A stretch of 64,000 bases of DNA from Salinicoccus carnicancri Crm (lineage in GTDB: Bacteria; Bacillota; Bacilli; Staphylococcales; Salinicoccaceae). Of the stretch, positions 30,002 through 48,001 are shown in pieces. A model generated the notes under the pieces. The model did no database searches, was not told the DNA's origin, and saw only the letters and a list, made by a program, of their open reading frames with translations. The translations under genes and the position numbers were made by a program. Within the stretch, counting starts at the first letter, position 1; every line of letters begins with the position of its first letter. Where the stretch lies: contig NZ_ANAM01000001.1 in NCBI RefSeq assembly GCF_000330705.1, positions 1-64,000 on the forward strand, in the 5' to 3' direction.

Positions 30002-30591
30002 CTAGACCATTTCGTTAAGGTGTTTCCGACGATAAGCGGCCGGCGTAAGATAGCCTAACGTCCCGTGAATGCGGATGCTATTGTACCAGTGGCCATAATC
30101 GAATAAGGCCAGCTCTAATTCCTTAAGGTTCTCGAATGTTTCTCCATAGATGAATTCTGTTTTCAGTACCTTATAGGTCGCTTCGGCAACGGCATTGTCA
30201 TAAGGGCATCCTTTTTCACTCAGGGAACGATCAATATCAAAGGTTTCAAGTCGCTCTTCGATGGCCTGGTTTTTAAACTCGTTTCCTCTGTCGGTATGAA
30301 AGAGTTGAACGTCACGCAAGTCACCCTGAATCGAAGCGAACGCCTTCTGGACAAGAGCTGCATCTTTTTTGGCACCGGCACTGTACCCGATGGTTTCACG
30401 ATTATACAAATCGAGAATGGCACAGATATAGTTCCATTGGGTACCTACGCGTACATACGTCAAATCGCTGACGACAACCTTGCGCCCTTCTGTTTGAAGC
30501 GCATGCTTGATTTTACGGGTTCCGAAATTCTTCCTGCTTCGGTGAAAGATATCTACAATCCGGGCTGTCAGCTCATCTTCTTCGGATGTAT
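30002..30591 (-). pseudogene. IS3-family transposase OrfB, internally deleted
   Basis: The frame with EDELTARIVDIFHRSRKNFGT joins directly at EGRKVVVSDLTYVRVG, skipping the stretch that normally lies between. The rest keeps the rve-core features: FHTDRGNEFKN and CPYDNAVAEATYKVLKTE, with the second Asp and Glu of the DDE triad, and a C-terminal YNSIRIHGTLGY. Without a start codon it is not an intact gene. The stop codon lies inside the left inverted repeat. Confidence 0.75.
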
Positions 30592-30605
30592 CTTTTCATT
30601 TTGCT

Positions 30606-30953
30606 TCATAATAATACGTGCTCTTCGGGGGCTGATACCGAATAGTTGTGACGGTTGTTCCGGATCACATCTACTTTCGTTCCATGGTCACCGCCACTTG
30701 CTTTAAAATGTCGTTCTCCATATTGAGACGTTGTCTCTTTACGAAGCTTGATCAATTCCTTCTCTTCCGGCGAGCGGTTATCTGCTTCCTTGAACGAAAC
30801 GGAATCATGATACTGACTGACCCACCTGTCGAAAGAGGAAGACGTCAGCCCATACTCTCGGATGATTTCCTGTCTTGGCTTGCCGCCTTCGTAAAGCTGA
30901 ACGATCTGCTTCTTGAATTCAGAGGTGAAGCTACGACGGTTTCGCTTGGTCAT
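30606..30953 (-). pseudogene. IS3-family transposase OrfA, altered C-terminus
   Basis: The ATG at 30953 opens RRSFTSEFKKQIVQLYEGGK, a typical helix-turn-helix of IS3 OrfA, and continues through the leucine-zipper-like KELIKLRKE. After that the frame diverges into sequence (RNNRHNYSVSA) normally belonging to OrfB, so a deletion or frameshift has fused and broken the two frames. Confidence 0.75.
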
Positions 30954-31186
30954 GGTTTGGCACTCCTCGGCGTTCGATTTTCGTAAAGTGTAACGGACCT
31001 TAACGAAACTGTCCAACCAAGTGTAGCCTATCTATAATAAAACTTGGTATCTTAAGTACTTTAGTGTTTAAATTAGATTATAACTAAACAATTAAGACTC
31101 AAAATTGATCCTGAATATCTTACTATATCCTTATGGATATTCATCTAAGTAGTAAACTAAATATGTAGTAATAGGAAGGTGTAAAT

Positions 31187-33142
31187 ATGAAATTAGCAAA
31201 GCAAAGAGAGTGGGAGTTAAGAGTTTTAGCATCACCAAGGATACCTAGAGGAGACAGTGGATATACACATACTTTAAGAATTATATTAAATCACGTACTA
31301 AATGGAACTCCAACCAATGAAAAGATTGTTGTACCAGGAAGTAAGACGAATAATAACTTAGAAGAACTTCTAATTAGAATTAGGCCATTAGGGATAGTAA
31401 AAAAACTTAATAGTAAATGGGAAGTTTCTGAAGAGATAAAAGAATGGGTAATAAATAATGATAATGTATTTTTGACTAGTATAATTAATGGTAATTTAAA
31501 ATTTTTCGTTGAAATTCTAGATTTCTGTAATGGAATAGAAAGAACTTTGCAAGATATAATAGAATATGCAAAAAATGAATATGATTTAGAATGGAAAGGA
31601 AAGAGTCAATTTCTTGATAGAATTAAATGGTTAAGGGATATAGGTTCCATTGAATACATAGATCATAAACATTGCTATAAAACAAATGGAAGAGGAAAAG
31701 AAATTTTAAAATTGGTCCCTGTCATTAAAGTAAATTATGATAATGAAGTTAATCGTCAATTAAACATTAATTTATCTGACATGGCATTAGATAGTATAGT
31801 TCATAGTCAAGAACTATTAGTTCAAAGGAAAGTGAGTACAGGATATATCCCAGGTGGACTCAATGATTTATTTAATACAATCTTTGAATGTTTAGAATTT
31901 ATTAATAAAAATAATGAAGAGAGAGTAATATATAAGTATTATGAAAGTTCTTATGGAATAAAGTCTACCTCAACTCGAAGTTTCTTGCACCATTTAATGA
32001 ATTTAAAACTTATTGAACGTGTCTCATTATCTTCCTATGAAGTAACTAATCAAGGTATCTTATTATTAGAATCAAAAAATATACTTGATTTGGTTGTTTT
32101 TTATAATAATAGTTATAAATTTATACTCGAGTTATTAGAAGAGCTAAAAGAACCAAAAACAAGGAAACAATTGACCGAAATAGCTTCTTTATCATATGAG
32201 ATTCAATCAAATATATCTATTAATATTAGTCATAGACTTCACCTTCTAGAGAAAGCTGGTTTAATTTACTTTTATAAAAACAATTATCATCTTACAGAAG
32301 GTGCTGAAAAATTTATTACCCATTTTGAATTAGAGCTACCATCTATAATTGGAAATCGGAAAAATGAGAAAGAAAAAAGCGAACATTTTACTTTGTTGAA
32401 TGATCTTAATAAAACATCCAGAGATTCAATGAACCCTACCAACTTTGAAAAAGCTATTAGAAATATATTTTTAGAAATGGGATTTGATTCAAAGTTGATT
32501 GGGGGGGCTGGAAATACTGATGTATTATTAAAGTCACCTGGATCAGCACAATATTCTTATACAGTTTGTGTGGATGCAAAATCAACTTATAGTGGGGCGG
32601 TAACAGATAGTATGGTTGATTTTGATACTTTAAAAGAACATAAAAGAAAACACAATGCAGACTACATAGTTATAATTGCAAATACATTTAATTCAGAAAG
32701 TAGATTAACTAAAAGAGCAATTGAACATAATGTTGCTTTACTAGATATTGAATTATTGTCTGAACTATATAAAAAGCATATGGAAATTCCACTTTCATTT
32801 GAAGAATATATAAATATTTTTAATCAACCAGGTGTGGTAGATATTAAAGTTCTAGATAATAAGAGAAATGAAATGATTGGTATTGCCAATTTAATGTTAT
32901 CGATAATGGATGCATTTATTAATAATAAGGATGAGTTGCTCACATCAAGGGATCTATATTGGATAATAAATGTTAATAAAGAAAATGTATCAAAATTTAG
33001 TAAATTAGAGATTGAAGATATGCTATTATTTTTATCTTCTCCATTTATTGCATGTATAGAAAAAAAGAAAGAAGGATACAGAGCCCTAGGTTCTTCCCAA
33101 GATTTAAAGCAAAAATTTAATTTCTTTATGAAAAATCTTTAA
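31187..33142 (+). CDS. FokI-like restriction endonuclease: N-terminal winged helices plus C-terminal PD-(D/E)XK nuclease
   Basis: 651 residues, AT-rich, no frame damage. The N-terminal 400 residues contain about four winged-helix-like units, each ending in a T/S-x2-G or similar wing (KTNGRGKEIL, EVTNQGILLL, HLTEGAEKFI). One segment (FLDRIKWLRDIGSIEYID) resembles the FokI recognition domain as I recall it. The nuclease domain (about 420-540) has GGAGNTDVLL with Asp445 and VDAKS with Asp463 and Lys465, then a FokI-like LLDIELLSELY strand. About 110 residues follow the nuclease domain, unlike FokI. No methylase gene adjoins it. Function inferred: sequence-specific or modification-dependent DNA cleavage. 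Confidence 0.75.
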   Translation: MKLAKQREWELRVLASPRIPRGDSGYTHTLRIILNHVLNGTPTNEKIVVPGSKTNNNLEELLIRIRPLGIVKKLNSKWEVSEEIKEWVINNDNVFLTSIINGNLKFFVEILDFCNGIERTLQDIIEYAKNEYDLEWKGKSQFLDRIKWLRDIGSIEYIDHKHCYKTNGRGKEILKLVPVIKVNYDNEVNRQLNINLSDMALDSIVHSQELLVQRKVSTGYIPGGLNDLFNTIFECLEFINKNNEERVIYKYYESSYGIKSTSTRSFLHHLMNLKLIERVSLSSYEVTNQGILLLESKNILDLVVFYNNSYKFILELLEELKEPKTRKQLTEIASLSYEIQSNISINISHRLHLLEKAGLIYFYKNNYHLTEGAEKFITHFELELPSIIGNRKNEKEKSEHFTLLNDLNKTSRDSMNPTNFEKAIRNIFLEMGFDSKLIGGAGNTDVLLKSPGSAQYSYTVCVDAKSTYSGAVTDSMVDFDTLKEHKRKHNADYIVIIANTFNSESRLTKRAIEHNVALLDIELLSELYKKHMEIPLSFEEYINIFNQPGVVDIKVLDNKRNEMIGIANLMLSIMDAFINNKDELLTSRDLYWIINVNKENVSKFSKLEIEDMLLFLSSPFIACIEKKKEGYRALGSSQDLKQKFNFFMKNL

Positions 33143-33159: not shown

Positions 33160-34213
33160 TTGTCAAAATAAGCTAGACAGCCTGCCTACATCCATGTAAC
33201 TCATAAATGCTTCCAGCGGTGTCTGGTAGTTCAAAGACTTTCTGGGTATGTGGTTTCTCTTGGAGGCTACTGAAGCAACCTTCCTCTGATCCACTGTGTT
33301 GAAATCCATATGCTTGGGCAGGCCGTCTTTCCGAAGCAGTCCATTGGAATGTTCATTCAATCCTCTTTGGGAAGGCGTGCCCGGGTCGGCAAAGTAAATA
33401 TCAATATCATTTCGGTTGCTCATTGACTGCCAATTTGAGAATTCCTTACCACAGTCGAAAGTAATGGATTTGAACACATTTCTGGGAATCTGATGGAACC
33501 ATGCGTTGATGACTGTTTCAATATCCTTTGCAGTCCGGCCCTCGGGCTTGAGGGTAATGATCACTTTCGACAGCCGTTCTACAAGTGTCACAACGGCACT
33601 TTTATGATGGATGCCGACAATGGTATCGCCTTCCAGATGTCCAAATGCTTCTTTGAATGCTGGGTAGTCCGTCTTTCTGTCAGAGAGTTTCCGTCTGAAA
33701 GCCTGTCTCCCACGGCGTTCCTTATGGCCGTTGGGTTTTCGCTTTCCTTTCATCGGCAAGGTGGAAACATCAAAGTCTTTGCGCTTGAACATGCGGTACA
33801 ATGTGCGGCTGGAGCAGTTGATCGGCTGTTCACGGCGACCGACAATCACATCCGGCGTCCATCCTTGCGCGACCTTTTCTGCCACATATGCGCGTTGATC
33901 ATTCGACAGCACCGTCTGTTTTCGACCGCAACGCTGCTTGTTTGCCTTGTAGCGCTTATAGAAATCCAATGCGGTGTGACCGTCTTTCAGGAAAGTGACC
34001 ACATTGTGGACGGTCTGACGTGCTCGGCCAATCTGTTCTGAAATCTTTGATACAGAGGCATTCTGATGGAAATAAGATTCTATAATTACAAGTTCATCCG
34101 TGCTAAGATGGGTGTAGGTCATTCGTGATCACTCCTATGATTTCTTTGGTCGGAAATACATTTTGAGTGTATCACGAGTGGCTTTCTTTATGTGTCTAGC
34201 TTAATTTTACAAT
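33160..34213 (-). mobile_element. IS30-family insertion sequence
   Basis: Bounded by inverted repeats TTTGTCAAAATAAGCTAGACA (from about 33160) and TGTCTAGCTTAATTTTACAA (34193-34212), differing at a few positions. It carries one full-length transposase gene. Its right end abuts a truncated IS21 gene and its left end lies 18 bp after the FokI-like gene, so a deletion has removed the sequence that once continued the IS21 element. Confidence 0.9.
33163..34122 (-). CDS. IS30-family transposase
   Basis: 319 residues, complete. N-terminal helix-turn-helix (VSKISEQIGRARQTVHNVV), the IS30-type middle region with WTPDVIVGRR, and a DDE core: HLEGDTIVG, SITFDCGKEFSNW and GLNEHSNGLLR (final Glu). The stop codon lies inside the terminal repeat. 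It looks functional. Confidence 0.93.
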   Translation of the reverse strand: MTYTHLSTDELVIIESYFHQNASVSKISEQIGRARQTVHNVVTFLKDGHTALDFYKRYKANKQRCGRKQTVLSNDQRAYVAEKVAQGWTPDVIVGRREQPINCSSRTLYRMFKRKDFDVSTLPMKGKRKPNGHKERRGRQAFRRKLSDRKTDYPAFKEAFGHLEGDTIVGIHHKSAVVTLVERLSKVIITLKPEGRTAKDIETVINAWFHQIPRNVFKSITFDCGKEFSNWQSMSNRNDIDIYFADPGTPSQRGLNEHSNGLLRKDGLPKHMDFNTVDQRKVASVASKRNHIPRKSLNYQTPLEAFMSYMDVGRLSSLF

Positions 34214-35024
34214 CGGCGTTTCTCAATCCCATAATAATCTGTCGGCTGACATAGCCCACATTGCCTTCAACACTGGCCTTATCTTTCGGCTTTACTGTAC
34301 GGGTGGGCACAATGACGGTTTGATAATAATCCGCGAGTTCTCGATATGCTTCGTTGAGTACAGGCTCGGCATGTATGGCCTTGGTGACGCCCGTTTTCAA
34401 ATTATCCGGCACTAGCACCTCAGGCACACTCTTAAAATACTCAAAGGCATGAATATGCCCCAATCCCCAACTCTTTGCGGTCATATCTAAAAACCCCTCG
34501 ACATAACTGTACTGACTGAATGGCAGAGATGCCACAAAGACATATACAGTGATCGCCTCGCCAGACATTCGGTCTTTCAAATGCAATGTCTCTCCGGCCC
34601 AATCCACTTCCAACAGTTCTCCAGGTTTGCGCTTGATGGGCAGGGTCAACCGATGCGTTCTGGCATAGTCATTGTAGTGCTGACAATAGGTCCGGTATGA
34701 ATAGGCCAAACGCTGTTCATCGGCCGCCCGCATCTCGTATTCTTTGTGCAGCAGCCGTAGGGTCATATGCTTCTTTTTTAATTCCGCATGCACATAGCGC
34801 CAGTCTTCTTCAACGAAGCCCCGTCCTCTGGGTGTCTGAGACGGAAACAGCTGAGATTTTAACCACGCATTTGTCATTTCATCTGTCAGTACTGTAATCT
34901 CCTTTTCTTTCGCCCGGTTAATCACTTTACTGACTGTCTGTCTTGAACTTCCAATCGATGCACTGATGGTTCGTTGGCTCATCCCTTGCTTATAGAGTTC
35001 TAGTATTTTTCGATATTGAATCAC
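34188..35024 (-). pseudogene. IS21-family istA, 3' truncated by IS30
   Basis: The frame begins at GTG 35024 after CAGGAGG and shows an IstA helix-turn-helix (YKQGMSQRTISASIGSSRQT) and the first parts of the DDE core (LEVDWAGETLHL, VPDNLKTGV). At 34213 it runs into the IS30 end and stops 9 codons later. The C-terminal third of IstA and the whole istB partner are missing. This is a different IS21 type from the next one. Confidence 0.85.
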
Positions 35025-35197
35025 ATCAAAAAACCTCCTGTGTACTAATGTCACACCATAGGTGTGCGCCATTAGTATACAGGAGGCACTGATATATTTT
35101 TCATAGTGGCACCAGATTGCTGCAATGAGTGGCTCAATTCAATGCACTCCGTGGCTCAAAAGTCTGCATGGCCGGCTCAAATGGAATGCAATATTCA
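34214..35197 (-). mobile_element. Truncated IS21-family element B
   Basis: Its outer end is at 35197, where TGAATATTGC begins exactly within the istB gene of element A. Three TTGAGCC boxes (35131-35137, 35153-35159, 35174-35180, spaced 21-22 bp) are the multiple terminal repeats expected at an IS21-family end. Only this end and part of istA survive. Confidence 0.8.
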
Positions 35198-35755
35198 CTG
35201 AAAGAATAGCTGTGCATCCTGCGGTTCATAAGCCATATACATGATGTCATCGATGATGATTAAATCCGAGGCGGCCATACGTTTATATCGGGTTCTGGAC
35301 TTGCTGATATACTCCCGTGTTTTCAGTATGTACACCAGGTGGTCCATCGGGACAAACGAGACCTGGTAGCCCTGGTTCACAGCGAGAATGCCGAGACCCG
35401 TCGAGAGGTGGGTTTTACCCACGCCCGAGGGTCCCATCATAATTAATGCAAAATGCTCTTCCACCCAGGACAGCTCCTTTAATACATTCAGTTGCTTCTC
35501 TCCAATCGCCGACTGTTCTGCCAATCTAAATTTATCCAAGGTCAAATATTGCGGGAATTCCGCCCATTTCATCAATTTGGCCCGATTCTTTTCTTCTCGA
35601 CAGCCGAGTTCATGACCCAGGATCTGGTCCATCAACTCATAGTAGGTCCAATTCTGTGATTCCGCCTTCCGAAGCATGTTCGGCAATTCCTTTGCGGTTT
35701 CTGCCAGCCGGAGGCTCCGGAATTTTTGTTGTAAGTCATGATAAGTGTTTGTCAT
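35195..35755 (-). pseudogene. IS21-family istB of element A, 3' truncated
   Basis: 186 codons of the AAA+ helper ATPase of IS21 transposition: Walker A GPSGVGKTH, Walker B LIIIDDIMYM. Normal IstB proteins have about 250 residues; here the frame breaks after DAQLFFQ where element B is inserted. It overlaps nothing and starts one base after istA, as usual for coupled istAB. Confidence 0.88.
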
Positions 35756-37436
35756 ATTACTGGCCGCCCTGAAGCACTTTTAAATAGATTTCTTGATTGC
35801 GTTCCGGGGCTGTCATATCTTTATATTTCTCATTTATGACAGCTGGCTTGGACTGGTGTCTGCCAGCCTGGATATCCAACGAGATCGCAATATCTCTGAG
35901 ATCATTCGCACTGGTCAATCCGAGGCGGTTTAATTCTTTCACCGCCGTATTGATATGTTGTGGATATTGCTCGGCAGATTTCAGTACAATTTTCAATTGA
36001 TCGGTCAGGTGTCTCGGATATTGACGCTGCAGCGTGTCCACCAGCCAGGCTGCCAGTTCAGTATCATCCATTGCTTCATACACTTGTGCGATTTGCCGGT
36101 CTCTTTTCGTTTGTGCTCGCTGTCGATGACTCGGGTCTGAAATGACTTGCCCTTTGATTTCAGATATTTGATGACTGGCAATGGGTTGAGTATCCGGCTG
36201 TAAGGAAATACTCAAATGGGTATCTGTGACGGAGACATAAGCGATATTCTCTCTGTCACTTTGAAATGTTCCCAACGGCACACTGTAGCGATTCCCTTCA
36301 AAGCGAATGACATTGTCCTTATGGATTTTTCTTGTTATATTAGTATATGAAATCGATTCAATATTGTAGTTTCCAGAGACTGTTTGAAGATGCGGCTTTT
36401 CCAGGGCGTGCACTTCAAATGGTCTTTTTTTAATATTATGATGGATTTTATAGTTCCCCGTCCGTTTCAGCCACCTCAGAGCGGCCTGCTGCCATGTGTT
36501 CAAGTGATCGAAGATTCGATGCTGGGCAAAATTGTTTTTCACATACTTAATGACTTGTTCAATTTTACCTTTAGACTCCGGATCACTTTTTCTACAGAGT
36601 TCAACTTTAAACCGCCTGAATCTTTGATACTGAGTAAATGATTCAGTCAGAATCAAGTCGCCGGCATTCTCACTGACGGCCAGTAACCGGTCCTGATCAT
36701 AAACGATCTCTTCGGTCATGCCCCCGAAATATTGAAATGCATTCTCCTGTATCCGGATTAAATCATCCGTTCGAAAGGGTCGGTCCAGCCACTCCACATA
36801 TTTGAACCGGGAATGCGATAAGATAAACCCGGCCACATACAGTTTCTGTCTGCCACCTGACGATGTATCCACCATGATTTCTCCAAAGTCGACCTGGATC
36901 TGTTGGCCCGGCGGCAGTTCATCCACAGCGCCGTAGACCCGCGCCACGGTGACTTTCGGTATGTGATAATGTTCCCTTAAATGATTGACATAGTTTCGTA
37001 CTGTATTTTCAGCCACGGATTGAATATCAAAGTGATCTTGCAGCCAGTCATAGATTTGTGCACTGGTGGCATCCGGATATGCTTTTAACCATGTCAATAT
37101 CTCATGTTGATAGGGATCCAGCTTCTTGGTTCGGTTATGCAGTGATGCCATAAACTCTGCGAACTCATCCGGTGTCATGCTCAAATAATCAATGACCCGG
37201 TTTCTTGAGATTTTTAATTGCTTTGCGATTTTACTGTTAGAAAATCCAATGTTTTTTAAGCGGTGTATCTCTTGATAGATCATCCATCTTTCCACTCCTT
37301 GTTCTCTCCCTTTAAATATACTTTCATTCAGTATATCTAAAAGCGGCTTTCTGATTTGTAAACTGTTGAATCTTATTTGTAGAGAACTGTTTAATCTTAA
37401 TTGTGGAAAACTGTTGAATCTAGTTTAGCAGTTACA
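35198..37436 (-). mobile_element. IS21-family element A, interrupted in istB
   Basis: Contains intact istA and truncated istB. The intact end has three copies of AACTGTT(G/T)AATCT starting at 37361, 37385 and 37409, exactly 24 bp apart, the multiple terminal repeats of IS21 elements. The element ends near 37436 (TGTAACTGC read leftwards). The other end was lost where element B inserted. Confidence 0.85.
35757..37295 (-). CDS. IS21-family transposase IstA (element A)
   Basis: 512 residues, complete. N-terminal helix-turn-helix (FSNSKIAKQLKISRNRVIDY), DDE core beginning QIQVDFGEIMVD, the middle Asp near MTEEIVYDQDRLLA and Glu in SKGKIEQVIKYVK, and a C-terminal beta-barrel region. The helper gene istB beside it is broken, so autonomous transposition is unlikely. 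Confidence 0.93.
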   Translation of the reverse strand: MERWMIYQEIHRLKNIGFSNSKIAKQLKISRNRVIDYLSMTPDEFAEFMASLHNRTKKLDPYQHEILTWLKAYPDATSAQIYDWLQDHFDIQSVAENTVRNYVNHLREHYHIPKVTVARVYGAVDELPPGQQIQVDFGEIMVDTSSGGRQKLYVAGFILSHSRFKYVEWLDRPFRTDDLIRIQENAFQYFGGMTEEIVYDQDRLLAVSENAGDLILTESFTQYQRFRRFKVELCRKSDPESKGKIEQVIKYVKNNFAQHRIFDHLNTWQQAALRWLKRTGNYKIHHNIKKRPFEVHALEKPHLQTVSGNYNIESISYTNITRKIHKDNVIRFEGNRYSVPLGTFQSDRENIAYVSVTDTHLSISLQPDTQPIASHQISEIKGQVISDPSHRQRAQTKRDRQIAQVYEAMDDTELAAWLVDTLQRQYPRHLTDQLKIVLKSAEQYPQHINTAVKELNRLGLTSANDLRDIAISLDIQAGRHQSKPAVINEKYKDMTAPERNQEIYLKVLQGGQ

Positions 37437-37644: not shown

Positions 37645-37660
37645 TTAGTATTATATATCG

Positions 37661-37672
37661 TTATTCCCACTC
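37661..37672. other. Left attachment repeat
   Basis: TTATTCCCACTC, identical to the guaA 3' end at 48002-48013. It lies between the integrase-proximal end of the element and the displaced guaA terminator. Confidence 0.85.
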
Positions 37673-37734
37673 AATAAGATTATAGTAGGTTTTAAACCTT
37701 AATATATCAATGTTTTAACCAAATTCTAAACTTA

Positions 37735-37754
37735 TTGGTGGGGGTTTTGGTGGG
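37735..37754. repeat. Putative integrase arm sites, left
   Basis: Two TTGGTGGG octamers (37735-37742, 37747-37754), start-to-start 12 bp. The same pair with the same spacing occurs near the other end. This pattern fits integrase arm-type binding sites like the repeats of Tn916. Confidence 0.7.
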
Positions 37755-37756
37755 TA

Positions 37757-38965
37757 TTATTTCTTTATCGCTTGATTACCTTTAAAATTTACACTACTAA
37801 AAGTTGGTGTGTCTATCTTTATATTGCCAGTCATTTTCTCAACTATCACATCATCTAAGCCCGACCACATATGAGCATAATGTCTTAATGTGATCTCTGG
37901 ACTTGAGTGACCTAAGCGATTAGATAATACAAGCACTGATACATTAAACTCATTGATTAGATAAGAGGCGTGTGAATGTCTTAATCCTTTGCTTTGAATT
38001 TTATGAATACCAGCTAGTTTTGAATATCTCGCTATAATTCTAGCCACAGTAGATTTAAGCATTGGTAATCCATCATAACTAAATATGAAATCATCAATTC
38101 CAATCTCATTTTGACGTTCTTTCCATTGTTTTAAAATCTTTATAGTATCATCATCAAGCGCAATCGTTCTTTTTCCATCAGTCGTTTTTGTATAATTGTT
38201 ACGTTTCCAATTATTTTTGTTTTTCACGATAAGCATATGATGCACTCTCAATCTCTTTTTTTCAAAGTCAACATCATCCCACCATAAAGCAGTACCCTCA
38301 TTTACTCTCACACCTGTCATAAAATAAATCCACAGCATGACAAAATTAAGATGCTCATAAAAATCGTCAATGTATATAGTGTTAATTACCTTTTCGAACT
38401 CTGTTTTTGTCCAATAATCTGTAACTGTTCGAGCTTTAGGGATTGCTTTAACTTTCTTTGAGATATTATAATCAAGATAGTTTAAGTTCACTGCCATCTC
38501 CAAGGATTGCCTAAGTGTTCCGAACAACAATCCAGCATAACTTTGTGAATAACCACAAGCATCTTTGGAGAGCAGAAACGTCTTGAAACTTTGGACTTGG
38601 TCTATAGTAATAGACCTCAATGGAATATCTCCAAAACGTTCGAGTAAATGATGAAATGCTCTCTTTCTTACTATAAACGTACTTTCCTCTACTTCAGTTT
38701 TATACGCTGGGATATATACATCATTCATAAACTGTCGATAAGTCATATTATAGTTAGAGTAACTCTTAACTTGGTGAAACTCATTTTTAATTCTAGTCAG
38801 CTCTCGATATGCATCTCTCGCAGTTTTAAAAGGAACACCATACTGATCTTTTCGTCCTTTTTTTCTAATTCTTTTTCCTGTAATTCGATCTATACCCAGC
38901 TCTGTTTGATAATAAAACTTCCCTTTATCATCAGTATAAACACATGCATATTTAGTTTTTCCCAT
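37757..38965 (-). CDS. Tyrosine site-specific integrase
   Basis: 402 residues: an AP2-like arm-binding N-terminus (YVTDDKGKFYYQTELG-like), a SAM-like core-binding domain (about 80-165) and the catalytic domain with Arg in MTGVRVNEGTAL, His-x2-Arg in GLRHSHASYLI, LGHSSPEITLRHY with the Tyr nucleophile at RHYAHMW. All catalytic residues are present. The ATG at 38965 has AAGGAG ten bases before it. It overlaps the end of the small upstream gene and lies at the end of the element next to the left attachment site, as expected. Confidence 0.93.
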   Translation of the reverse strand: MGKTKYACVYTDDKGKFYYQTELGIDRITGKRIRKKGRKDQYGVPFKTARDAYRELTRIKNEFHQVKSYSNYNMTYRQFMNDVYIPAYKTEVEESTFIVRKRAFHHLLERFGDIPLRSITIDQVQSFKTFLLSKDACGYSQSYAGLLFGTLRQSLEMAVNLNYLDYNISKKVKAIPKARTVTDYWTKTEFEKVINTIYIDDFYEHLNFVMLWIYFMTGVRVNEGTALWWDDVDFEKKRLRVHHMLIVKNKNNWKRNNYTKTTDGKRTIALDDDTIKILKQWKERQNEIGIDDFIFSYDGLPMLKSTVARIIARYSKLAGIHKIQSKGLRHSHASYLINEFNVSVLVLSNRLGHSSPEITLRHYAHMWSGLDDVIVEKMTGNIKIDTPTFSSVNFKGNQAIKK

Positions 38966-39164
38966 TTTTCGATGTCTCCTTGTGAAGTGAAACACCTAAA
39001 ATTGATTCAACAACACTTACAGGCACCCTACCGAGCCTTTTGTTATTGTAAAATGGATACCCTTTTTGTATCATAATATCTTTTGCTTGTCTAATAACAG
39101 TGATAGACGTGTGTGTCGGATAGCCTAATTCTATAAGATCATCTTTAGTGACTGTTTTATTCAT
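38952..39164 (-). CDS. Excisionase-like small protein (DUF3173-type)
   Basis: 70 residues: MNKTVTKDDLIELGYPTHTS then ITVIRQAKDIMIQKGYPFYN, a winged-helix-like small DNA-binding protein commonly found directly before the integrase in Gram-positive integrative elements. The ATG at 39164 follows GAGGTG. Its last codons overlap the integrase start, so the two are probably translated together and control excision. Confidence 0.75.
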   Translation of the reverse strand: MNKTVTKDDLIELGYPTHTSITVIRQAKDIMIQKGYPFYNNKRLGRVPVSVVESILGVSLHKETSKNGKN

Positions 39165-39245
39165 GAGATTCACCTCAATCTTTCAAATCATTATAAAATT
39201 CCGTGACATAGATAATCTCATTACCTACTGGATTCAGATGTTTAG

Positions 39246-40028
39246 TCATTTTGGAATAATTTGATTTTTTTCTAGATTTACGTTATTCTTTTTTAAAATA
39301 CTTTCTTTTATCCCCGTCTCTTCATAAAGTTGTATTATATTTCTCGAACACCTGTATATCCTTAATCCTTTAGGATATAAATAAAGACGAGCACCTTTTA
39401 TATACTTTTTATCCTCCGTTGCGTTTTCTTCTGGTATTTTTAAATTTGACAAGTAAGCCACCACATAATTACCTACTTTATCTGAACTTTTTAATCTCTT
39501 AGTTTTAGTAAAACCCCTTCCCCAAAATAAAGATAACTCTTTATTTGGTATATATAATTCACTTTCGTCATCTTTCTTAAGCAACACATGATAGTGCCAT
39601 CTCCCAGAAGCTTGAGGTTCAATTACTGAAATGTATTCCAATTTCCCATATGCTTTTCTCATTCTTTTGATAAAAACTTTGAAATGGTTATAAGCTTTTT
39701 CAGTATCTGTAATATGCTCTTTATAAGTTAAGGTAATCCATAATTCATTTTTCCTACCATGAAAATTATGACCAATTAGTCTTCTCAACTTCTTCATTGT
39801 ATTTTTTACAGATTTTAAATTGTCTTGTCTACTTTCTGAAGAAACATCCATATCTTTTATCTCTCCAGTTTCAAGTACCACATACCTTTTACCAGGTAGC
39901 ACCATGATTGTCTGCTTACCAATTGAAGTTGTCATTTCTAACGTCTCACCATATCGATAAGATTTCACTAATGTTTTTTCAAAAATCTTAGGAATATTAT
40001 TGGGGAACTTTTTCTTGTCCTCTGTCAT
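39246..40028 (-). CDS. HUH-type replication initiator/relaxase
   Basis: 260 residues. ELWITLTYKEH matches motif 1 of rolling-circle Rep proteins; ASGRWHYHVLLKK contains the metal-binding His-hydrophobic-His motif; VGNYVVAYLSNL carries a candidate catalytic Tyr. Such proteins in integrative elements nick the origin for plasmid-like replication and can act as relaxases. A hairpin-rich stretch just upstream (40073-40114) is a good target. The ATG follows AAAGGTG. Confidence 0.83.
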   Translation of the reverse strand: MTEDKKKFPNNIPKIFEKTLVKSYRYGETLEMTTSIGKQTIMVLPGKRYVVLETGEIKDMDVSSESRQDNLKSVKNTMKKLRRLIGHNFHGRKNELWITLTYKEHITDTEKAYNHFKVFIKRMRKAYGKLEYISVIEPQASGRWHYHVLLKKDDESELYIPNKELSLFWGRGFTKTKRLKSSDKVGNYVVAYLSNLKIPEENATEDKKYIKGARLYLYPKGLRIYRCSRNIIQLYEETGIKESILKKNNVNLEKNQIIPK

Positions 40029-40072
40029 CTATTCACCTTTTGATTCTATTGTATGACGTTTATCAAGTTAAC

Positions 40073-40114
40073 GGCCTATCGGCCTGAGCGGTTGTGGCTC
40101 TCGCCACACCGCTC
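40073..40114. other. Candidate replication/transfer origin
   Basis: Two adjacent hairpins: GGCC-TATC-GGCC (40073-40084) and a 12-bp stem with one bulged T and a TCTC loop (40086-40114). There is no T-run after it in either direction, so it is a poor terminator. It lies between the FtsK-like ATPase gene and the HUH gene. It is locally GC-rich inside an AT-rich element. Confidence 0.5.
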
Positions 40115-40120
40115 TAAAAA

Positions 40121-40918
40121 TCAGGTCTTATCTTCAATCAAGGTTAAATAATCAATAGTATTTTGATAATAAAATGACTTCTTAAAAGTTTCCCATAAAT
40201 CAATTTTCGATAAATTTGGTGATGCAAACGGATAAACATTGCCGTTAGTAGTTAAACCTTGCAACCATAGAAACCCATGTCCCCGTTCCAGTTTTAAATT
40301 TGGTACTTCTATTGATTCACCAAAGGTTTGCCTATACGCTGCAGATGAAGCAGACCCCATATGTGCTATTAATCCAAATTGCTCTTTAATACTTGAATTC
40401 AATCCAGAATTTCCTACAGACGCTTGTTGCATAATAGCCAATAGTCCAAAGTTATATTGACGCCCTAATAGTACAATTTGACTAATTAAATCATCATGAT
40501 ATTTCTTTTCTTTACTAGTCAAAGTTTGAGTAAATGCCCCGAATTCATCATAAATTAAATAAAATAATGGCATACCTAAATCGTTAGCTGTAGAGCCAAA
40601 ACTAGTACTATCGTTAACAAAGTCAGCCCTCTTTTTCATCAATGAAACAAAATTTTCTAGCAAAGAGAAAATTTGCTCCTTAGTTATTGCAACTCTTTCT
40701 TCAGGCAAAATCTCGTGCAATCGACTAATATCACTTTGTTTATAATCAATTGCATGAATCTGTGTCGAGGGTTCCAGTTGAGCTAGTTTCAATATTAAAT
40801 ACATACCAAACCAGCTCTTACCCATGCCCCTAGAACCTGCTAGCAGTATATTGATATGTGTTGAGCAATCATATTCTATTGATTTAGTAAGCGGTATTTT
40901 ATAGTCCAACCGAATCAC
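40121..40918 (-). CDS. FtsK/SpoIIIE (TcpA)-type DNA-translocating ATPase, C-terminal domain
   Basis: 265 residues: Walker A LLAGSRGMGKSW and Walker B FYLIYDEFGAF, with GLLAIMQQASV as the following motif. This is the catalytic half of the TcpA/FtsK coupling ATPases of Gram-positive integrative elements. The membrane-anchoring half is encoded by the previous gene, which it overlaps by 20 bases. A TTG at 40909 with GAGGGTG six bases ahead may be the real start. Together they could bring the nicked DNA to a mating pore or act in replication. Confidence 0.8.
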   Translation of the reverse strand: MIRLDYKIPLTKSIEYDCSTHINILLAGSRGMGKSWFGMYLILKLAQLEPSTQIHAIDYKQSDISRLHEILPEERVAITKEQIFSLLENFVSLMKKRADFVNDSTSFGSTANDLGMPLFYLIYDEFGAFTQTLTSKEKKYHDDLISQIVLLGRQYNFGLLAIMQQASVGNSGLNSSIKEQFGLIAHMGSASSAAYRQTFGESIEVPNLKLERGHGFLWLQGLTTNGNVYPFASPNLSKIDLWETFKKSFYYQNTIDYLTLIEDKT

Positions 40919-41495
40919 CCTCTAGCTGATCAGCAAGATAATCAGGCGCTAAGATATAACGCACCCATCCCTCTTTTTCGTAGCTTTCAATGATTTTATA
41001 CTCTGCATGCTTTTGAGATAGATATGAATTTAAGGAGCTATTAAGCGCTAGCATTTTTTCTTTTTTATCACCAATTATTTCAATTTCAAAGGCTTTTATA
41101 TTCTCTTCTTTAACACGCCTAACTTTTGGTATCATAACTTTATTTTTGCTGTATTTCATATATATGCCTACATTCTGTAGAAAATAATCCAGCCTGCGAT
41201 TGATTACTAAATAAACGGGGTCTTCTGTTATATAAAATCGAATCTCTCTAATGTAGATCCAGAATATATAAATAAACACTAACGAATAGCTTACTATTTG
41301 AATCCAGAAAGCACTTTGAATCACATAACTCAACAAATTTATAATAGGTTCATAACTTACTTCATTTATTAAAATCATAGTTGTTTTTTTTAGAATAGTA
41401 ATCGCAATTGCTATGATTAAACTAATCCAAATAATTTTTGGTACCAACTTCAGACCAGGACCGCCATTCAAACTTCGTTTAAGATGTGCCATCAT
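40899..41495 (-). CDS. Membrane protein, probable N-terminal half of a split TcpA coupling protein
   Basis: 198 residues. Two membrane segments (about 18-36 and 60-85) precede a cytoplasmic region with a beta-rich ICE-type pattern (PKVRRVKEENIKAFEIEIIG, ILAPDY). The order of membrane segments then a domain just before an FtsK ATPase copies the N-terminus of one-piece TcpA proteins. ATG 41495 follows AAAGGTG. Confidence 0.65.
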   Translation of the reverse strand: MMAHLKRSLNGGPGLKLVPKIIWISLIIAIAITILKKTTMILINEVSYEPIINLLSYVIQSAFWIQIVSYSLVFIYIFWIYIREIRFYITEDPVYLVINRRLDYFLQNVGIYMKYSKNKVMIPKVRRVKEENIKAFEIEIIGDKKEKMLALNSSLNSYLSQKHAEYKIIESYEKEGWVRYILAPDYLADQLEGDSVGL

Positions 41496-41841
41496 CTTTC
41501 ACCTTACCTTCAATGAATCTAAGATCAGAAGCAGACAAAGATAAATTACTGTTAAAATCCCCCCAGACCTTGCCAACAGGATTCACTAGTTTTACCTGCA
41601 CTGGTTTGTCAATATCCAAAGGTTCTTTACCTTCAATTTTGACATTATAGGTGTCACCTACATTAGATACACTTTCATCCTTATATTTAGTATTATCTTC
41701 CCAAACTATAATTGTATATTTTGCTCCAATGTTTTCTCTATTTTGATTTTTTAGTACTTCTGATTTCATCGCTAACAACGTTTTATCCTTTAAAAATCGC
41801 TCTGCCTCAAAATTTTGAAATTCTAATAGTTTTTTTGTCAT
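41479..41841 (-). CDS. YdcP/DUF961-like integrative-element protein
   Basis: 120 residues, no membrane segment. The C-terminus (VWGDFNSNLSLSASDLRFIE) resembles the end of YdcP-type proteins, which are found before the coupling protein in Tn916/ICEBs1-like elements and are implicated in replication or transfer. It is the first gene of the leftward block and overlaps the next gene slightly. Family assignment is from one segment. Confidence 0.55.
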   Translation of the reverse strand: MTKKLLEFQNFEAERFLKDKTLLAMKSEVLKNQNRENIGAKYTIIVWEDNTKYKDESVSNVGDTYNVKIEGKEPLDIDKPVQVKLVNPVGKVWGDFNSNLSLSASDLRFIEGKVKDDGTS

Positions 41842-41875
41842 GTATTTACTCTAGTCCTTTCTTTTTTGTTAATTT

Positions 41876-41895
41876 AAAGATAAGCGCTTATCTTT
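41876..41895. promoter_or_regulatory. 20-bp perfect palindrome, probable operator
   Basis: AAAGATAAGCGCTTATCTTT is a perfect palindrome in the intergenic region between the divergent Xre gene and the element's leftward gene block. It is ideally placed as an operator for the Xre regulator. Confidence 0.7.
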
Positions 41896-41995
41896 GTTAC
41901 TTTTTATTCTAAGTTGTCATAGTATTTTTGTAATCAGAATAAATTTTGTGAATTTTGCTTATATTTGTTCCGAAAATTTTTAGAGGTGATTAATA

Positions 41996-42934
41996 ATGAA
42001 TGGAAGATACGAATCATTAGAAGATATTGTTTATAGAATTATTGGAAAACGTATTAAATATATGAGAAAAAAAAGGGGATTAACTCAATCTGACTTAGGT
42101 TCAGATGAATTAACTTTTATTAGTAAAGATGTTGTGAGCGCAATAGAAAATGGAAAACTCTTTAAAACAAGAACAACATTTATAACAGATAATGAGTTAT
42201 CAATAATAAGCAAAGTATTTAATGTAAAAAGTGGGAAAATTATTTTCGGTGAATCTTCTGAAGAAATTGACAAGTTAGTTTTCAAGTTTTATCAATATGT
42301 TGCTTATAGTTTGATAACTATTCCTAGTGAAATATATTGGAATGAATATTGTAACACAGACTCTAATATCAACGATTGCTCTATAGCATTACAATCCACT
42401 TTACAGTTCAGTGCTTTATATACATCTTTCCGATTATATATTGAGCATATTTTTAAATCTGGAAAGCAAAAAGAACACTTCACTAATAAAGATATTGAAA
42501 AGTTTCAGAAGAAGTATGATAAGTTAATTTATTTTTTTTGGACAAGTCATAAAGATAAAATAGTACAAAGTTTTGTAGATTTTTGGAATGGTCAAAAAGA
42601 AATTAATATGAAAAAATTCAAAAACTTACTTGTAGAAAAATGGGTGAATACCGATTTGAGAAATTTAATACTAAATATAAAAGATTTTTACAAAACTGTC
42701 CCATATTACGGACTTGGTTACGAAATATCAGAGGAATTATACGATCATATTGAGGATATACTTGATTATTTAAAATTTAATGTTGATTATGATAATAACT
42801 TGTTAAATATAGTAAGAGCAGATTGGAAGGGACAAGAACATATAAGCAGACATGAAGAAAGGGTACAAGATAATACTGTCGCTTTATATCATCGCGCAAT
42901 GTCACAAGAAATGACGTTAAGAGTATATTCATAA
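41996..42934 (+). CDS. Xre-family regulator of the integrative element
   Basis: 312 residues. An N-terminal helix-turn-helix (IGKRIKYMRKKRGLTQSDLG ... ISKDVVSAIENGK, about residues 16-70) is followed by a long all-helical region of unknown fold. ATG is preceded by GAGGTG. Divergent from the leftward block and with a palindrome between, it probably controls the element's mobility genes. Its large C-terminal domain may sense a signal; no ImmA-type protease is adjacent. Confidence 0.83.
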   Translation: MNGRYESLEDIVYRIIGKRIKYMRKKRGLTQSDLGSDELTFISKDVVSAIENGKLFKTRTTFITDNELSIISKVFNVKSGKIIFGESSEEIDKLVFKFYQYVAYSLITIPSEIYWNEYCNTDSNINDCSIALQSTLQFSALYTSFRLYIEHIFKSGKQKEHFTNKDIEKFQKKYDKLIYFFWTSHKDKIVQSFVDFWNGQKEINMKKFKNLLVEKWVNTDLRNLILNIKDFYKTVPYYGLGYEISEELYDHIEDILDYLKFNVDYDNNLLNIVRADWKGQEHISRHEERVQDNTVALYHRAMSQEMTLRVYS

Positions 42935-42937
42935 AAA

Positions 42938-42971
42938 AAGAAAGAGGTTGCTTATTTAGCAATCTCTTTCA
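42938..42971 (+). terminator. Terminator after the Xre regulator
   Basis: GAAAGAGGTTGC pairs imperfectly with GCAATCTCTTTC (42941-42952 with 42960-42971), followed by an AT-rich run. Confidence 0.6.
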
Positions 42972-43076
42972 TATTTACCCAATCACCTTATTCCATTGGT
43001 TCTATATTACTTTTTACGAATTTCACAAATCTCTGCTTTAAGATGATGTTCTAGCGCCATTATTAACCCCCAAAAT

Positions 43077-45812
43077 TTAAATATCAAAATCTTCTTGTTG
43101 ATACATTGTGAGTCCTTCAAAATTTTTACTTAAAGTAATTTGTCCTAATTGTTTTATGGTCCCACGGCCGTCATTCATAGTATAAAATTTAAGCCCTTTA
43201 ATTTTAACCCCCTCAACATTATCATCAATTATAATTTCTGCCTCATTTTCATTAATGTAGTTTAACAGCTTTTCTTTCCACTGTTCTCTTTCGAGGTGCA
43301 CTGGCCCCTTCGGTTCTATAAACACTTGAATAAAAAATTCGGCATTCTTTAAATAAAGTATAAAGTCAGGTTGAAATCCCTCTATATTCATTTCATAAGT
43401 TGTATAATCAAACTGATGTAACATTAATTTATGATTTTTCGCAGATTCTCTATGCATATTTTCATCCATTCGGATTAAATAAACTTCTTCATATTCTTTT
43501 TTAAGTTCTTCAACACGCTCACTAATACGATCAATTAATTGTTTCTCAGTCAGATTAATGATTGCGGTATCATATGCATAGAAATCTTCTTTAATTTCAT
43601 ATCTTTCGACATGTTGAGGACTTTTGGATAAATATAACTGTGAAGTATCATAATTAGGTACTCTCTTTTTATAATTAGAAATATAGTCTTTGATTGGATA
43701 ACCAATAAATTGATTCGTTCCTCGTTTATATGAATAGCCTTTTTTAATTTTTTGAGCAGTTTCCAACAAATAGCGCTCTAAAATTTCTAATTTCTGGTAT
43801 GGTGTTATATCACTTTCTGACATTGTAACAGGTCCAGTAACATAAATTGTTCTATTGTAAATATTTAGCCATTTCTTTGATAAAAATTCTTCTTTAGAGG
43901 CAACTTTGGGTACATAATTTTTAAGGTTACTAAAATGATAAAAAGAAATTTTGCTCATTGCCTTTTTTATATATCTTTTATCTATAGATAATTTAATACT
44001 AGTAGTTTTTTCTGTATCCTCATATATTGTTTTGTCACTATATCCAAATTCCTGAACAGAAGAGAACCAAGGAATATAAATATCATTAATATTATCAATA
44101 CCATATTTATCTAAACCATTAAAATCATCTGCACTCAACTGAACCGTTTTATTATAATATATATACCCATACTTCCAAACATCTGTATCCTTAAAGCTTT
44201 TCTTAACTTTCACATCAAGTAGAGGATTTTTCTTATCTTCACCTGTTGGTAAATTTATATCATCGAGTGATTGAATTAGATTTTTTAAATACTGAGGTTC
44301 ATTAAGTGTATGATAATGGAGGGTTTCTAATAAAAGACTATCTTTACTATCATCTTCAAATCTTCTTTGATATGACTGTTGGTTGTTAAGAAAGAAAGGA
44401 TTATACCTAGCACCTCGACCAATCAGTTGTGCTTCAGAGTTTGTGGACTTTTTATTCCCTTTCACTGTTGATGGATTACTAATCCTCACAATATCATATA
44501 AATTAAGAACATCCCAACCTTCTGTTAACTTAGCAACCGCAAATATTGCACGATTGAGATTCTCAGGACTTTCTAAACTATTTAAAGCTTCGTATTGTCC
44601 TTTTTCTAACATACCTTTACCACGATCACTATCATTTGCATTTATAACACGATTCGATGAAAATTCCCTTTTAATGTCTTGGATGATTTCATATAATATC
44701 TCTTTATTTCTTAAATAATATTCGCGGGCCATTGCAAGTGTCTCGCTAGAAACATCGTCACTCATTTGCCCTTGTCTCTCTAAAAAGTTAATTACTTTTT
44801 CAACTGATAATTCTTCTATAAGTTGATTAAATAGTGTTTCTGCTTCGTTTGAATCATTAATTTTTTGAGATTTAAACATGATTACTGGCTTTATATAAGT
44901 ATCGTGTTGCTCCAAAGCATAACGGCGTCTATACTCGCTTAATAGAATGACTCTTAACATATTTTGTTCATCTGTATTACCCGACTGAATACGTTTCACA
45001 TTTTTTGAGAATCGATCATGTATAAATCGATCTAAAGCATAACGATAAATGACCTTATCTCGATACTTCTCATAAATATTCTTATTATCTAAATCAATAG
45101 TGGCTGTAAATTCTAAGAGCTGGTTATCTCTACGGGCATGCAGAATCGTATTAATCGCCTTTTCCCATGACCGCTCTGATTCTTTTTCTGCTTTAGTTGA
45201 GGCAGAATAATGATGTGCTTCATCGCCTAAGATTACTACCTTATTTCTAGCATAGTCTTGTTCACTCATTGAGTTTTCACTTTGCGTATAAATATCTCCA
45301 GCAACACGTTGGACTGATGATAATTTTAAATAAATAGTGTTTTCCTCTTGAATTTTAGGAAATACTTCTACCGTTTTAATAGTAATTTTTTTACCATCAA
45401 TTTCTATTGGATTGTTAAATAGGTATTTTTTTGATGCGGTCTCAGTGAGATTATCAATCGTTTTGTTTAAAACACTATTGGTGTTAACTAAGAATAAAAA
45501 ATTTTGATATTCGTGTTCATAAAATAAATATAAAATTAATCCTGCCATCAAGTCCGTTTTTCCTGACCCCGTTGCCATGTTGAATAATACATGATTAATA
45601 TTTCTATATTTAAAATTTTCATCACTTTGAATGTAATGATAGTATCTCAATGCTTCTTGTTGATACCCCCTAAATGAATGAATCATATTCTGTTGTAAAT
45701 AAAATGGATATTCCCAATCTAAATTACTATTGAATAAGCTCATATTTAAATTTTCTAATTCTTCTAGTAAAGGTAAAGATAATTTCTTTTTATATTTTTT
45801 TTTAATCACCAT
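43077..45812 (-). CDS. Type III restriction enzyme, Res helicase-nuclease subunit
   Basis: 911 residues, intact. Superfamily 2 helicase motifs: NMATGSGKT (I), VILGDEAHH (II), EFTATID (III), AQLIGRGARYNP (VI). A C-terminal PD-(D/E)XK nuclease reads EGFQPDFILYL then VFIEPKGP. In complex with Mod it translocates or slides and cuts DNA when two unmethylated sites face each other. The ATG is 2 bases after mod, so the genes are coupled. No damage seen. Confidence 0.93.
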   Translation of the reverse strand: MVIKKKYKKKLSLPLLEELENLNMSLFNSNLDWEYPFYLQQNMIHSFRGYQQEALRYYHYIQSDENFKYRNINHVLFNMATGSGKTDLMAGLILYLFYEHEYQNFLFLVNTNSVLNKTIDNLTETASKKYLFNNPIEIDGKKITIKTVEVFPKIQEENTIYLKLSSVQRVAGDIYTQSENSMSEQDYARNKVVILGDEAHHYSASTKAEKESERSWEKAINTILHARRDNQLLEFTATIDLDNKNIYEKYRDKVIYRYALDRFIHDRFSKNVKRIQSGNTDEQNMLRVILLSEYRRRYALEQHDTYIKPVIMFKSQKINDSNEAETLFNQLIEELSVEKVINFLERQGQMSDDVSSETLAMAREYYLRNKEILYEIIQDIKREFSSNRVINANDSDRGKGMLEKGQYEALNSLESPENLNRAIFAVAKLTEGWDVLNLYDIVRISNPSTVKGNKKSTNSEAQLIGRGARYNPFFLNNQQSYQRRFEDDSKDSLLLETLHYHTLNEPQYLKNLIQSLDDINLPTGEDKKNPLLDVKVKKSFKDTDVWKYGYIYYNKTVQLSADDFNGLDKYGIDNINDIYIPWFSSVQEFGYSDKTIYEDTEKTTSIKLSIDKRYIKKAMSKISFYHFSNLKNYVPKVASKEEFLSKKWLNIYNRTIYVTGPVTMSESDITPYQKLEILERYLLETAQKIKKGYSYKRGTNQFIGYPIKDYISNYKKRVPNYDTSQLYLSKSPQHVERYEIKEDFYAYDTAIINLTEKQLIDRISERVEELKKEYEEVYLIRMDENMHRESAKNHKLMLHQFDYTTYEMNIEGFQPDFILYLKNAEFFIQVFIEPKGPVHLEREQWKEKLLNYINENEAEIIIDDNVEGVKIKGLKFYTMNDGRGTIKQLGQITLSKNFEGLTMYQQEDFDI

Positions 45813-45814
45813 CT

Positions 45815-47737
45815 TTACACCTCATCTTCACTATAAAATGAGTCATTAAATGCATAATCACTATTTGAAATTAGATCACGTACATTTGCGTCATCAATTT
45901 CTGAATAATTGTAATAAAGTTGATTTTTATCAATAATCTTTATAAGTATCATCTTTTGTTCTTTAAATGGGTTCTGCCATAATGATTCTTGAATCTCTTG
46001 TAAATCAACTTGGAAATTTAAATCAACATTATCCAACATACGAGAATATATATCTATTAACTCGCTTGTATCTTCTGCATCCATTATAGATTGAATATAA
46101 CCTCTACTCTTCTCCATTAATTCGATATATATAAAAGGTGTTACTTTCTTAGATTCATCTTTAGCTAACAATCTAGGTATTTGAACAGTTTCTATATAAG
46201 GCATTTGCTCTATCATCACAAATGTTCTATTACCTCTATCTTCTTTATTTAACATCTGAACAGCATGTGCAGTAGTGCCTGACCCAGAGAAGAAATCTAA
46301 TACTTTAGCATTTTTTTTATATTTTATTACAGAATATAATGCATCATAAACTGAATAAATTGATTTAGGAAACGAGAAGTCCGCATTAGGAACCAATTTC
46401 TTTAATAGTTGCTTACCATGGACACTAGCATCATAGAGTGGAGATTGCCAAACTGTCTTATATTGTCCAAAGTTCTTTCCTAACATAATTTCGTATCTAT
46501 TATTATTTTTCTTCACTACATGAAGCATTTCTTGTATACTTTCAATAGTTTGTCGAGCATACCTCCATTTTCTCTCAATACCTTTAGTATCAATAGGATA
46601 GACATAAGCTACGCCCTCTTTGATTTCTGTTTGTTTAGGGTGTGTATCATCTTCTACTATTTCTCCAAAACCTACTATTTCATTTGTATCTAAATCAACT
46701 AGTATTGGGAAAAATGTATTTCTGCCATCTGTCCGCAGAGATTCTCCTCCCCAGTTTCTTAAGTTCGACAAACTAATTTCACTATCTAAAAGCTTACGAT
46801 CTTCTATAACCTTTTTGCCTTCAGGAAATACAAAATATAAAAATTCATTACTATATGAGAAATTTGTTCCTTGAACACCTCTTGGATTATGTATTACTGT
46901 GATTAAATGATTTTCATAATCTGGGAATAATTCATCTAATAAAACACCTAGATAGTTCACCTCATTTTCATCAATTGCAATAATTAACACACCATCATCT
47001 TTTTTTAATAATTTTTTTGCAATCTCAAGGCGATTTTTCATGAACACTAACCAACTTGAATGATTAAAACGATTATTATAAGAAAACGTATTATTTGAAG
47101 ATGTAACGTTGTATGGTGGATCAATATAAATCACATCAAAATCATTTAAGAATCTATTGCTTATTGAATGCAACGTTAATAAATTGTTACCTTTTATAAG
47201 TAAACTCTCACCATTATAACTACTTACCTCCTCTGCTCCTTCTTCACTATATTTTTTTGCGTTTGACAAAATTTTCTTATCTAATAAAACATCTATTTCA
47301 TTTTTAGCTATAACTTCGTTTAAAAAGGGTTCACTTGGAGTTAAATCATTTTTATCATTATCTTCTTTAGTCATACTCGCTTTTAACACAGTATCTTTAT
47401 AAGGAAAATCCAATATCACATCTGAGGTTTCTTCCAAAAACTTTCCACTACTAGTTAAGCCAATTTTCTTTGTATATTTTGTATAAGAATTTTTCCAATA
47501 TTGATCCATTTCAAATACTTTTATTAAGTTATTAATTTTCAGTATTTTTGTATCCATAATCTTTTGCGTAAACAAATTATCCAAAGTCTCATTTTGTAAT
47601 ATTGACATTATTAAGTCATGATCGTAATTGTTTAAATCTTGAATGATTTTATTCTTATTTATCTCTTTATCTATGTAATATTTATCATTAAAACTTTCTA
47701 ACACTTTTGTTATCTCATCATTTATTACTGTATCCAT
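45815..47737 (-). CDS. Type III DNA adenine methyltransferase, Mod subunit
   Basis: 640 residues. The beta-class order is clear: catalytic DVIYIDPPYN (about residue 200) precedes FFSGSGTTAHAVQML (SAM motif I, about 488). The variable target-recognition domain lies between. No simple-sequence repeat that would give phase variation is visible in or before it. It methylates one strand of an asymmetric site and guides Res. Promoter presumably in the 47738-47880 gap. Confidence 0.94.
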   Translation of the reverse strand: MDTVINDEITKVLESFNDKYYIDKEINKNKIIQDLNNYDHDLIMSILQNETLDNLFTQKIMDTKILKINNLIKVFEMDQYWKNSYTKYTKKIGLTSSGKFLEETSDVILDFPYKDTVLKASMTKEDNDKNDLTPSEPFLNEVIAKNEIDVLLDKKILSNAKKYSEEGAEEVSSYNGESLLIKGNNLLTLHSISNRFLNDFDVIYIDPPYNVTSSNNTFSYNNRFNHSSWLVFMKNRLEIAKKLLKKDDGVLIIAIDENEVNYLGVLLDELFPDYENHLITVIHNPRGVQGTNFSYSNEFLYFVFPEGKKVIEDRKLLDSEISLSNLRNWGGESLRTDGRNTFFPILVDLDTNEIVGFGEIVEDDTHPKQTEIKEGVAYVYPIDTKGIERKWRYARQTIESIQEMLHVVKKNNNRYEIMLGKNFGQYKTVWQSPLYDASVHGKQLLKKLVPNADFSFPKSIYSVYDALYSVIKYKKNAKVLDFFSGSGTTAHAVQMLNKEDRGNRTFVMIEQMPYIETVQIPRLLAKDESKKVTPFIYIELMEKSRGYIQSIMDAEDTSELIDIYSRMLDNVDLNFQVDLQEIQESLWQNPFKEQKMILIKIIDKNQLYYNYSEIDDANVRDLISNSDYAFNDSFYSEDEV

Positions 47738-47891
47738 AAATACACCTCACTAAAAATCTATTATGCTACTTTATCATTAATATGCTGGCAATGATAAACA
47801 AATCAATTAAAACTTTTTATTATAACATTTAATGCCATTAAAATTATGATAACTTTTTATATATAATTAATCAAAAAAATCCCCACACGTC

Positions 47892-47911: not shown

Positions 47912-48001
47912 GAATCAAGTAGATATAAATAATTTCTATCCATTTTAAAAAGCTTAAAATGCTGTTAAATCAACGTTTTCACTTCAATTTGTATTATTAC
48001 T

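Follow-up and report, generated by a model that had tools for sequence, protein, structure and literature searches.

FokI is the archetype of the sequence-specific type IIS cutters, and its winged helices read unmodified DNA; HindIII and N.BspD6I/R.BspD6I are likewise type II enzymes. A further group, the winged-helix-fusion endonucleases dependent on 6mA (DpnI, FcyTI, HhiV4I, Ahi29725I), combines a winged helix with a nuclease, mostly in stand-alone genes, and PMC11037411 argues for such fusions that stand-alone enzymes are modification-dependent. Here we compare with these systems a gene from a 64,000-nucleotide stretch of Salinicoccus carnicancri Crm (contig NZ_ANAM01000001.1, positions 1 to 64,000), termed the window. 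A first-pass annotation of the window had read it as an orphan FokI-like nuclease with an additional C-terminal domain, a reading supported by the fold, the active site and the genomic context.

An intact gene between insertion sequences

The 651-residue protein of the first-pass annotation was borne out by the sequence and the ORF list, as the frame is intact and open over 651 codons with an ATG start and a ribosome-binding site (Table 1). The gene has a GC content of 27%, compared with 50–52% across the nearby guaA–guaB genes. It is present as a single copy in its own 2.67 Mb genome and was found in 0 of 11 congeneric genomes, and is therefore probably a recent acquisition.

Table 1. Features of the nuclease gene and its immediate flanks, in window coordinates.
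Feature	Position	Strand	Basis
Solitary winged-helix array / PD-(D/E)XK restriction endonuclease ORF	31187–33142	+	Open frame, Mrr_cat, full-length homologs
Shine-Dalgarno AGGAAGG, 7 nt upstream of the ATG	31173–31179	+	Sequence
Module 1, residues 1–185: W9...P20 arm, wH1 (approx. 26–90), wH2 (approx. 104–180), Y132-x3-W136-x8-R145-x2-W148 signature	31187–31741	+	AF2 secondary structure; conservation
Module 2, residues 198–383: RKxxxGYIPGG arm, wH3, wH4; tandem duplicate of module 1	31778–32335	+	hhalign; single-module relatives
FokI/HindIII/Mrr-type PD-(D/E)XK nuclease domain, residues 410–545	32414–32821	+	Pfam, profile searches, fold match
Catalytic residues E421 (32447–32449), D445 (32519–32521), D463 (32573–32575), K465 (32579–32581)	32447–32581	+	Conservation in alignments
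Fifth winged helix (wH5) and preceding long helix, residues 546–651	32822–33139	+	AF2; aligned to C-terminus of archaeal relatives
Left flank: IS3-family (IS150-type) transposase ORFs 30002–30463 and 30606–31016	30002–31016	-	ORF list; family by inspection of translation
Right flank: IS30-family transposase, 20 bp past the nuclease stop codon	33163–34122	-	ORF list; family by inspection

To the right of the gene, positions 33163–37295 hold nested insertion sequences, with IS30 followed by IS21-type istA/istB fragments, of which 34188–35072 and 35195–35755 look truncated. Farther along, an integrative element (37654–48016) lies in the 3' end of guaA, with imperfect 22-bp direct repeats at 37654–37675 and 47995–48016. 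It encodes an integrase, excisionase-like, Rep and FtsK-like proteins and a type III restriction system (Res 43077–45812, Mod 45815–47737). Just outside this element, beside its att repeat and the IS21 genes, three 19-nt repeats with an exact 24-bp spacing (AAACTGTTGAATCTTATTT) occupy 37360–37426.

The first pass was also correct that no methylase lies beside the gene, the nearest being the type III Mod gene at a distance of 12.7 kb. The type III Mod/Res pair (43077–47737) was rejected as a partner, as it lies between the guaA att repeats and the nuclease gene outside them. The host genome of the window yielded no match to PF00145 or PF02086, one to PF01555, which is this same Mod gene, and one distant match to PF02384.

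A PD-(D/E)XK nuclease framed by five winged helices

Pfam Mrr_cat covers residues 413–527 of the protein (E = 3.6e-7; 30.8 bits against a curated cut-off of 21) and matches 18 of the 24 family members at E ≤ 0.01. Within the 24-row alignment, comprising the window protein and 23 relatives, E421, D445 and K465 do not vary, and position 463 holds D or E, with E in two staphylococcal and two archaeal members. The catalytic assignment made earlier, D445 and D463-x-K465, is right, because these residues are conserved and the nuclease-domain profile finds HindIII (E = 6.8e-6) and FokI (E = 0.0025) among all PDB sequences; E421 completes the PD-(D/E)XK site. With Mrr_cat above its cut-off and these residues conserved, the presence of a nuclease domain is thus confirmed, and judging from the alignments the active site looks functional. 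Aligned with the catalytic half of FokI by hhalign, the nuclease scored 88%. The window protein gave no match to the Pfam FokI domain at E ≤ 1, FokI_cleav_dom matched relatives only and under its cut-off, and a PDB search with the single window-protein sequence returned nothing.

We modeled the protein with AlphaFold2 from the 24-row alignment, obtaining a pLDDT of 85 and a pTM of 0.45, so that the domains are confident and their arrangement is not. The model shows two winged helices per module, then the nuclease, and after it a long helix leading into a fifth winged helix; the several winged-helix units seen in the first pass thus resolve into four at the amino-terminus, paired in two tandem modules, and a fifth at the carboxy-terminus. 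Comparison of module 1 (approximately residues 1–190) with module 2 (approximately residues 205–400) by hhalign yielded a probability of 99.7% (E = 1.1e-25, 174 columns). A two-winged-helix module is thus duplicated in tandem across the N-terminal 385 residues, a finding new to this work, and relatives with a single module exist in Acidimicrobiia (L028, L030) and in a gammaproteobacterial MAG (L032). First copies and second copies form separate groups in the module tree (support 94/90 and 100/97), and the duplication is therefore older than the Bacillota–Actinomycetota split among the sampled sequences.

In the arm of module 1, W9 and P20 are invariant in 19 of 19 sequences, and in its wH2 all 18 of 18 sequences have Y132, W136, R145 and W148; the wH2 signature is also kept in the single-module proteins L028 (KYDLNW...RRGWL) and L032 (RYGLHW...RIGWL). 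As far as conservation can tell, the invariance of Y132/W136/R145/W148 from Bacillota to Actinomycetota is more like that expected of a shared ligand than of diverging target sequences. Mrr_N-like winged helices were matched at E ≤ 0.01 in 11 of the 24 members, the window protein not being one of them.

The first-pass estimate of about 110 residues following the nuclease was confirmed by residues 546–651 (~107 residues), in which the AlphaFold2 model places helices at 553–579, 587–595, 606–616 and 637–650 and strands at 624–627 and 630–633. This region occurs in almost all members, L029 being the exception, and also in archaeal relatives that are otherwise dissimilar in their amino-terminal parts. 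The domain described as extra is hence present, and absent from FokI, but it is not special to the window copy: wH5 is a family-wide winged helix, recognized as such here.

Foldseek comparison of the model with the PDB showed the PD-(D/E)XK fold to be present and FokI to be the best match, occupying ranks 1–3 (2fok best; E = 1.9e-11 to 5.7e-11, probability 1.00), followed by N.BspD6I and HindIII and, lower, by the BpuJI recognition domain and AF1548. The TM-scores to these matches were low (0.22–0.27), as expected if the domain arrangement differs. The full-length profile aligned with FokI at 95% over 325 columns, running from the winged helices into the nuclease (hhalign), whereas the module profile alone matched the FokI recognition domain weakly, with a probability of 6%. 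The segment said to resemble that recognition domain may do so in predicted fold, and does so weakly by sequence. Common ancestry of the recognition parts with FokI is plausible and, given the 6% score of the module profile, not established by sequence; on the model, the resemblance to FokI is structural, and the nuclease is the only part whose sequence shows it clearly.

A sparse family nearly always without a neighboring methylase

Scanning genome contigs with the single sequence gave 0 loci and with the alignment 24 loci. Full-length homologs, 24–39% identical, are found on plasmids and chromosomes of Bacillota and Actinomycetota, in Priestia, Staphylococcus, Rossellomorea, Alteribacter, gut Clostridia, Gordonia, Streptomyces, Nocardioides and Arthrobacter relatives; with one proteobacterial MAG these phyla make up the range of the family. 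Its distribution is sparse (5 of 400 genomes of the class, the window's own counted), and RefSeq names the Priestia and staphylococcal copies "restriction endonuclease". No relative was detected in the viral contigs and phage records scanned, and a fold search among viral proteins gave mainly nuclease-domain matches. The Streptomyces lincolnensis copy of the nuclease (L031:5949–7720) is broken up into two or more frames and seems to be a gene in decay.

We analyzed the surroundings of 21 loci with winged-helix modules (flanks up to 6 kb; the broken L031 left out) and found ORFs with methyltransferase motifs only in L020, where m5C and Dam-like methylases lie next to a putative MAG4270-family endonuclease of their own, together a complete type II system. 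Pfam and PADLOC scans of 119 neighbor ORFs report results among the 25 commonest families and were complemented by a motif scan of all flanking ORFs, whose sensitivity is imperfect, as the cut, annotated methyltransferase of L038 was picked up only once motif I was no longer required. Similarly, no methylase is annotated near four plasmid copies. The family is nearly always without a neighboring methylase, an observation new here. The neighbors of homologs are mutually unrelated and often other defense genes: ABC-3C (ABC-three-component) and AbiH in L005, McrBC together with the type II system in L020, a SauUSI-like type IV enzyme (mREase_IV) in L021, Orf5/HEC-06 in L015 and PDC-S01 in L016. 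Some family hosts carry m5C or adenine methyltransferases, and any modification that is read must therefore be context-specific.

In two relatives from methanogen-lineage archaea (L033, L034), the similarity is confined to the nuclease and wH5. In L034 an SPPY-motif methylase, a 125-aa ORF and the nuclease with wH5 form one apparent operon (L034:3470–6717), and the same layout with the 125-aa ORF recurs near a contig start in L033 (L033:1054–2718); the nuclease here bears an N-terminal domain of ~175 aa of another kind, and the arrangement is a possible undescribed type II restriction-modification layout. A haloarchaeal relative (L038) also has a methylase next door. On a haloarchaeal plasmid (L009:5407–5964), the winged-helix modules are replaced by an N-terminal domain looking PUA/EVE-like, for which Pfam PUA scored E = 0.099 and a PDB search returned unrelated short matches.

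Proposed function and relation to known systems

The protein is most likely, with moderate confidence, a solitary modification-dependent (type IV-like) restriction enzyme. This reading extends to it the stand-alone argument made in PMC11037411, because a mobile, methylase-free nuclease with an intact site that occurs in several phyla must itself spare host DNA, and the type IV trait of a stand-alone gene without methylase holds for the window copy and nearly all relatives with winged-helix modules. Against modification dependence stand the use that FokI itself makes of winged helices on unmodified DNA and the archaeal forms, in which nuclease and wH5, behind a different N-terminal domain, share an operon with a methylase (L034) or lie beside one (L038), so that ordinary type II systems, too, can make use of the module. 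The archaeal forms, together with the rank of the type IIS enzyme FokI as best structural match, favor a sequence-specific, type IIS-like enzyme whose four winged helices would read a long, rare unmodified site, with a host that lacks the site or encodes the methylase elsewhere; PADLOC REase_II models, moreover, match 8 of the 24 members, weakly. We regard this alternative as unlikely, since members occur in many genera and phyla without a linked methylase, the three main DNA methyltransferase families searched (PF00145, PF02086 and PF02384) are all without a match in two host genomes (G465, G466), and a gene that moves between hosts while cutting a fixed, unmodified site would kill most of those it enters.

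Two further explanations concern the origin and the trigger. That a type II or IIS system lost its methylase through deletion by the flanking insertion sequences, as the first-pass annotation had offered among three readings, finds a pointer in the elements abutting the gene on both sides, but is highly improbable: homologs from other genera and phyla, in different genomic surroundings, likewise lack a methylase, the gene is complete right up to IS30, its active site is invariant, and an active enzyme would kill its host once the methylase was gone. A defense nuclease, possibly abortive, that answers to another trigger (an unusual DNA structure, a phage protein, or DNA that is damaged or carries phosphorothioate) would suit a solitary gene located in defense islands, the weak similarity to the PADLOC candidate PDC-S02 (E = 1e-4) and the precedent of Mrr, for which high pressure, and not methylation, can also be the trigger (PMC3874153); we rate it as improbable, as the winged helices are the only candidate sensing domain found. 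Of the three earlier readings, a modification-dependent enzyme or a new defense protein is thus best supported, because nearly the whole family is solitary, and the deletion scenario is unsupported.

If the enzyme is modification-dependent, its winged-helix array would wrap the target DNA and read a feature missing from the host genome, most likely a modified base in the DNA of phages or foreign plasmids. The nuclease tethered to it would then cut close by, probably once paired, in the manner of FokI, with another nuclease domain, and wH5 may give an extra DNA or dimer contact. A horizontally mobile stand-alone endonuclease of this kind would be FokI-like in its mechanics and a type IV (modification-dependent) restriction system in its use. 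It is possible, although we hold this only tentatively, that the tandem two-module array, marked by the W9/P20 arm and the Y132-W136-R145-W148 signature, represents a novel type of reader for modified DNA, and that a FokI-type cutter was thereby turned into a mobile, methylase-free defense gene common to Bacillota, Actinomycetota and Pseudomonadota. As nuclease and wH5 come with methylases in archaea but lack them in bacteria, the family suggests a natural route from a paired restriction-modification nuclease to an orphan defense gene. Modification dependence would make the enzyme a bridge from FokI and its sequence-specific type IIS kind to type IV restriction; as a modular reader-cutter, it might then serve for mapping DNA modifications.

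Compared with FokI, the window protein has the same type of PD-(D/E)XK nuclease and an N-terminal array of winged-helix subdomains, but it carries two duplicated winged-helix pairs instead of D1-D2-D3, its nuclease is not the C-terminal-most domain, being followed by the ~107-residue wH5, it has no partner methylase, and sequence similarity in the recognition region is weak. HindIII and N.BspD6I/R.BspD6I resemble it in nuclease fold and overall model, HindIII with another domain plan. With the Mrr type IV enzymes it shares an Mrr_cat match above cut-off and the solitary state, and Mrr_N-like winged helices were matched in the 11 other members mentioned above; Mrr, in contrast, has one N-terminal winged helix with the nuclease last, and a Q-x-K motif, according to PMC3874153 and PMC11037411, in place of D-x-K. 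The 6mA-dependent fusions are alike in joining a winged helix to a nuclease, and DpnI has the same order of PD-(D/E)XK and C-terminal winged helix, whereas the window protein has four extra N-terminal winged helices; DpnI was not among the top 50 Foldseek matches of the model. The (wH-wH)x2-PD-(D/E)XK-wH architecture does not appear in the sections of PMC11037411 consulted, nor did we find it described in the open literature searched, a scope that excludes subscription papers and REBASE, and it seems to represent a new variant on the FokI/Mrr-type enzymes.
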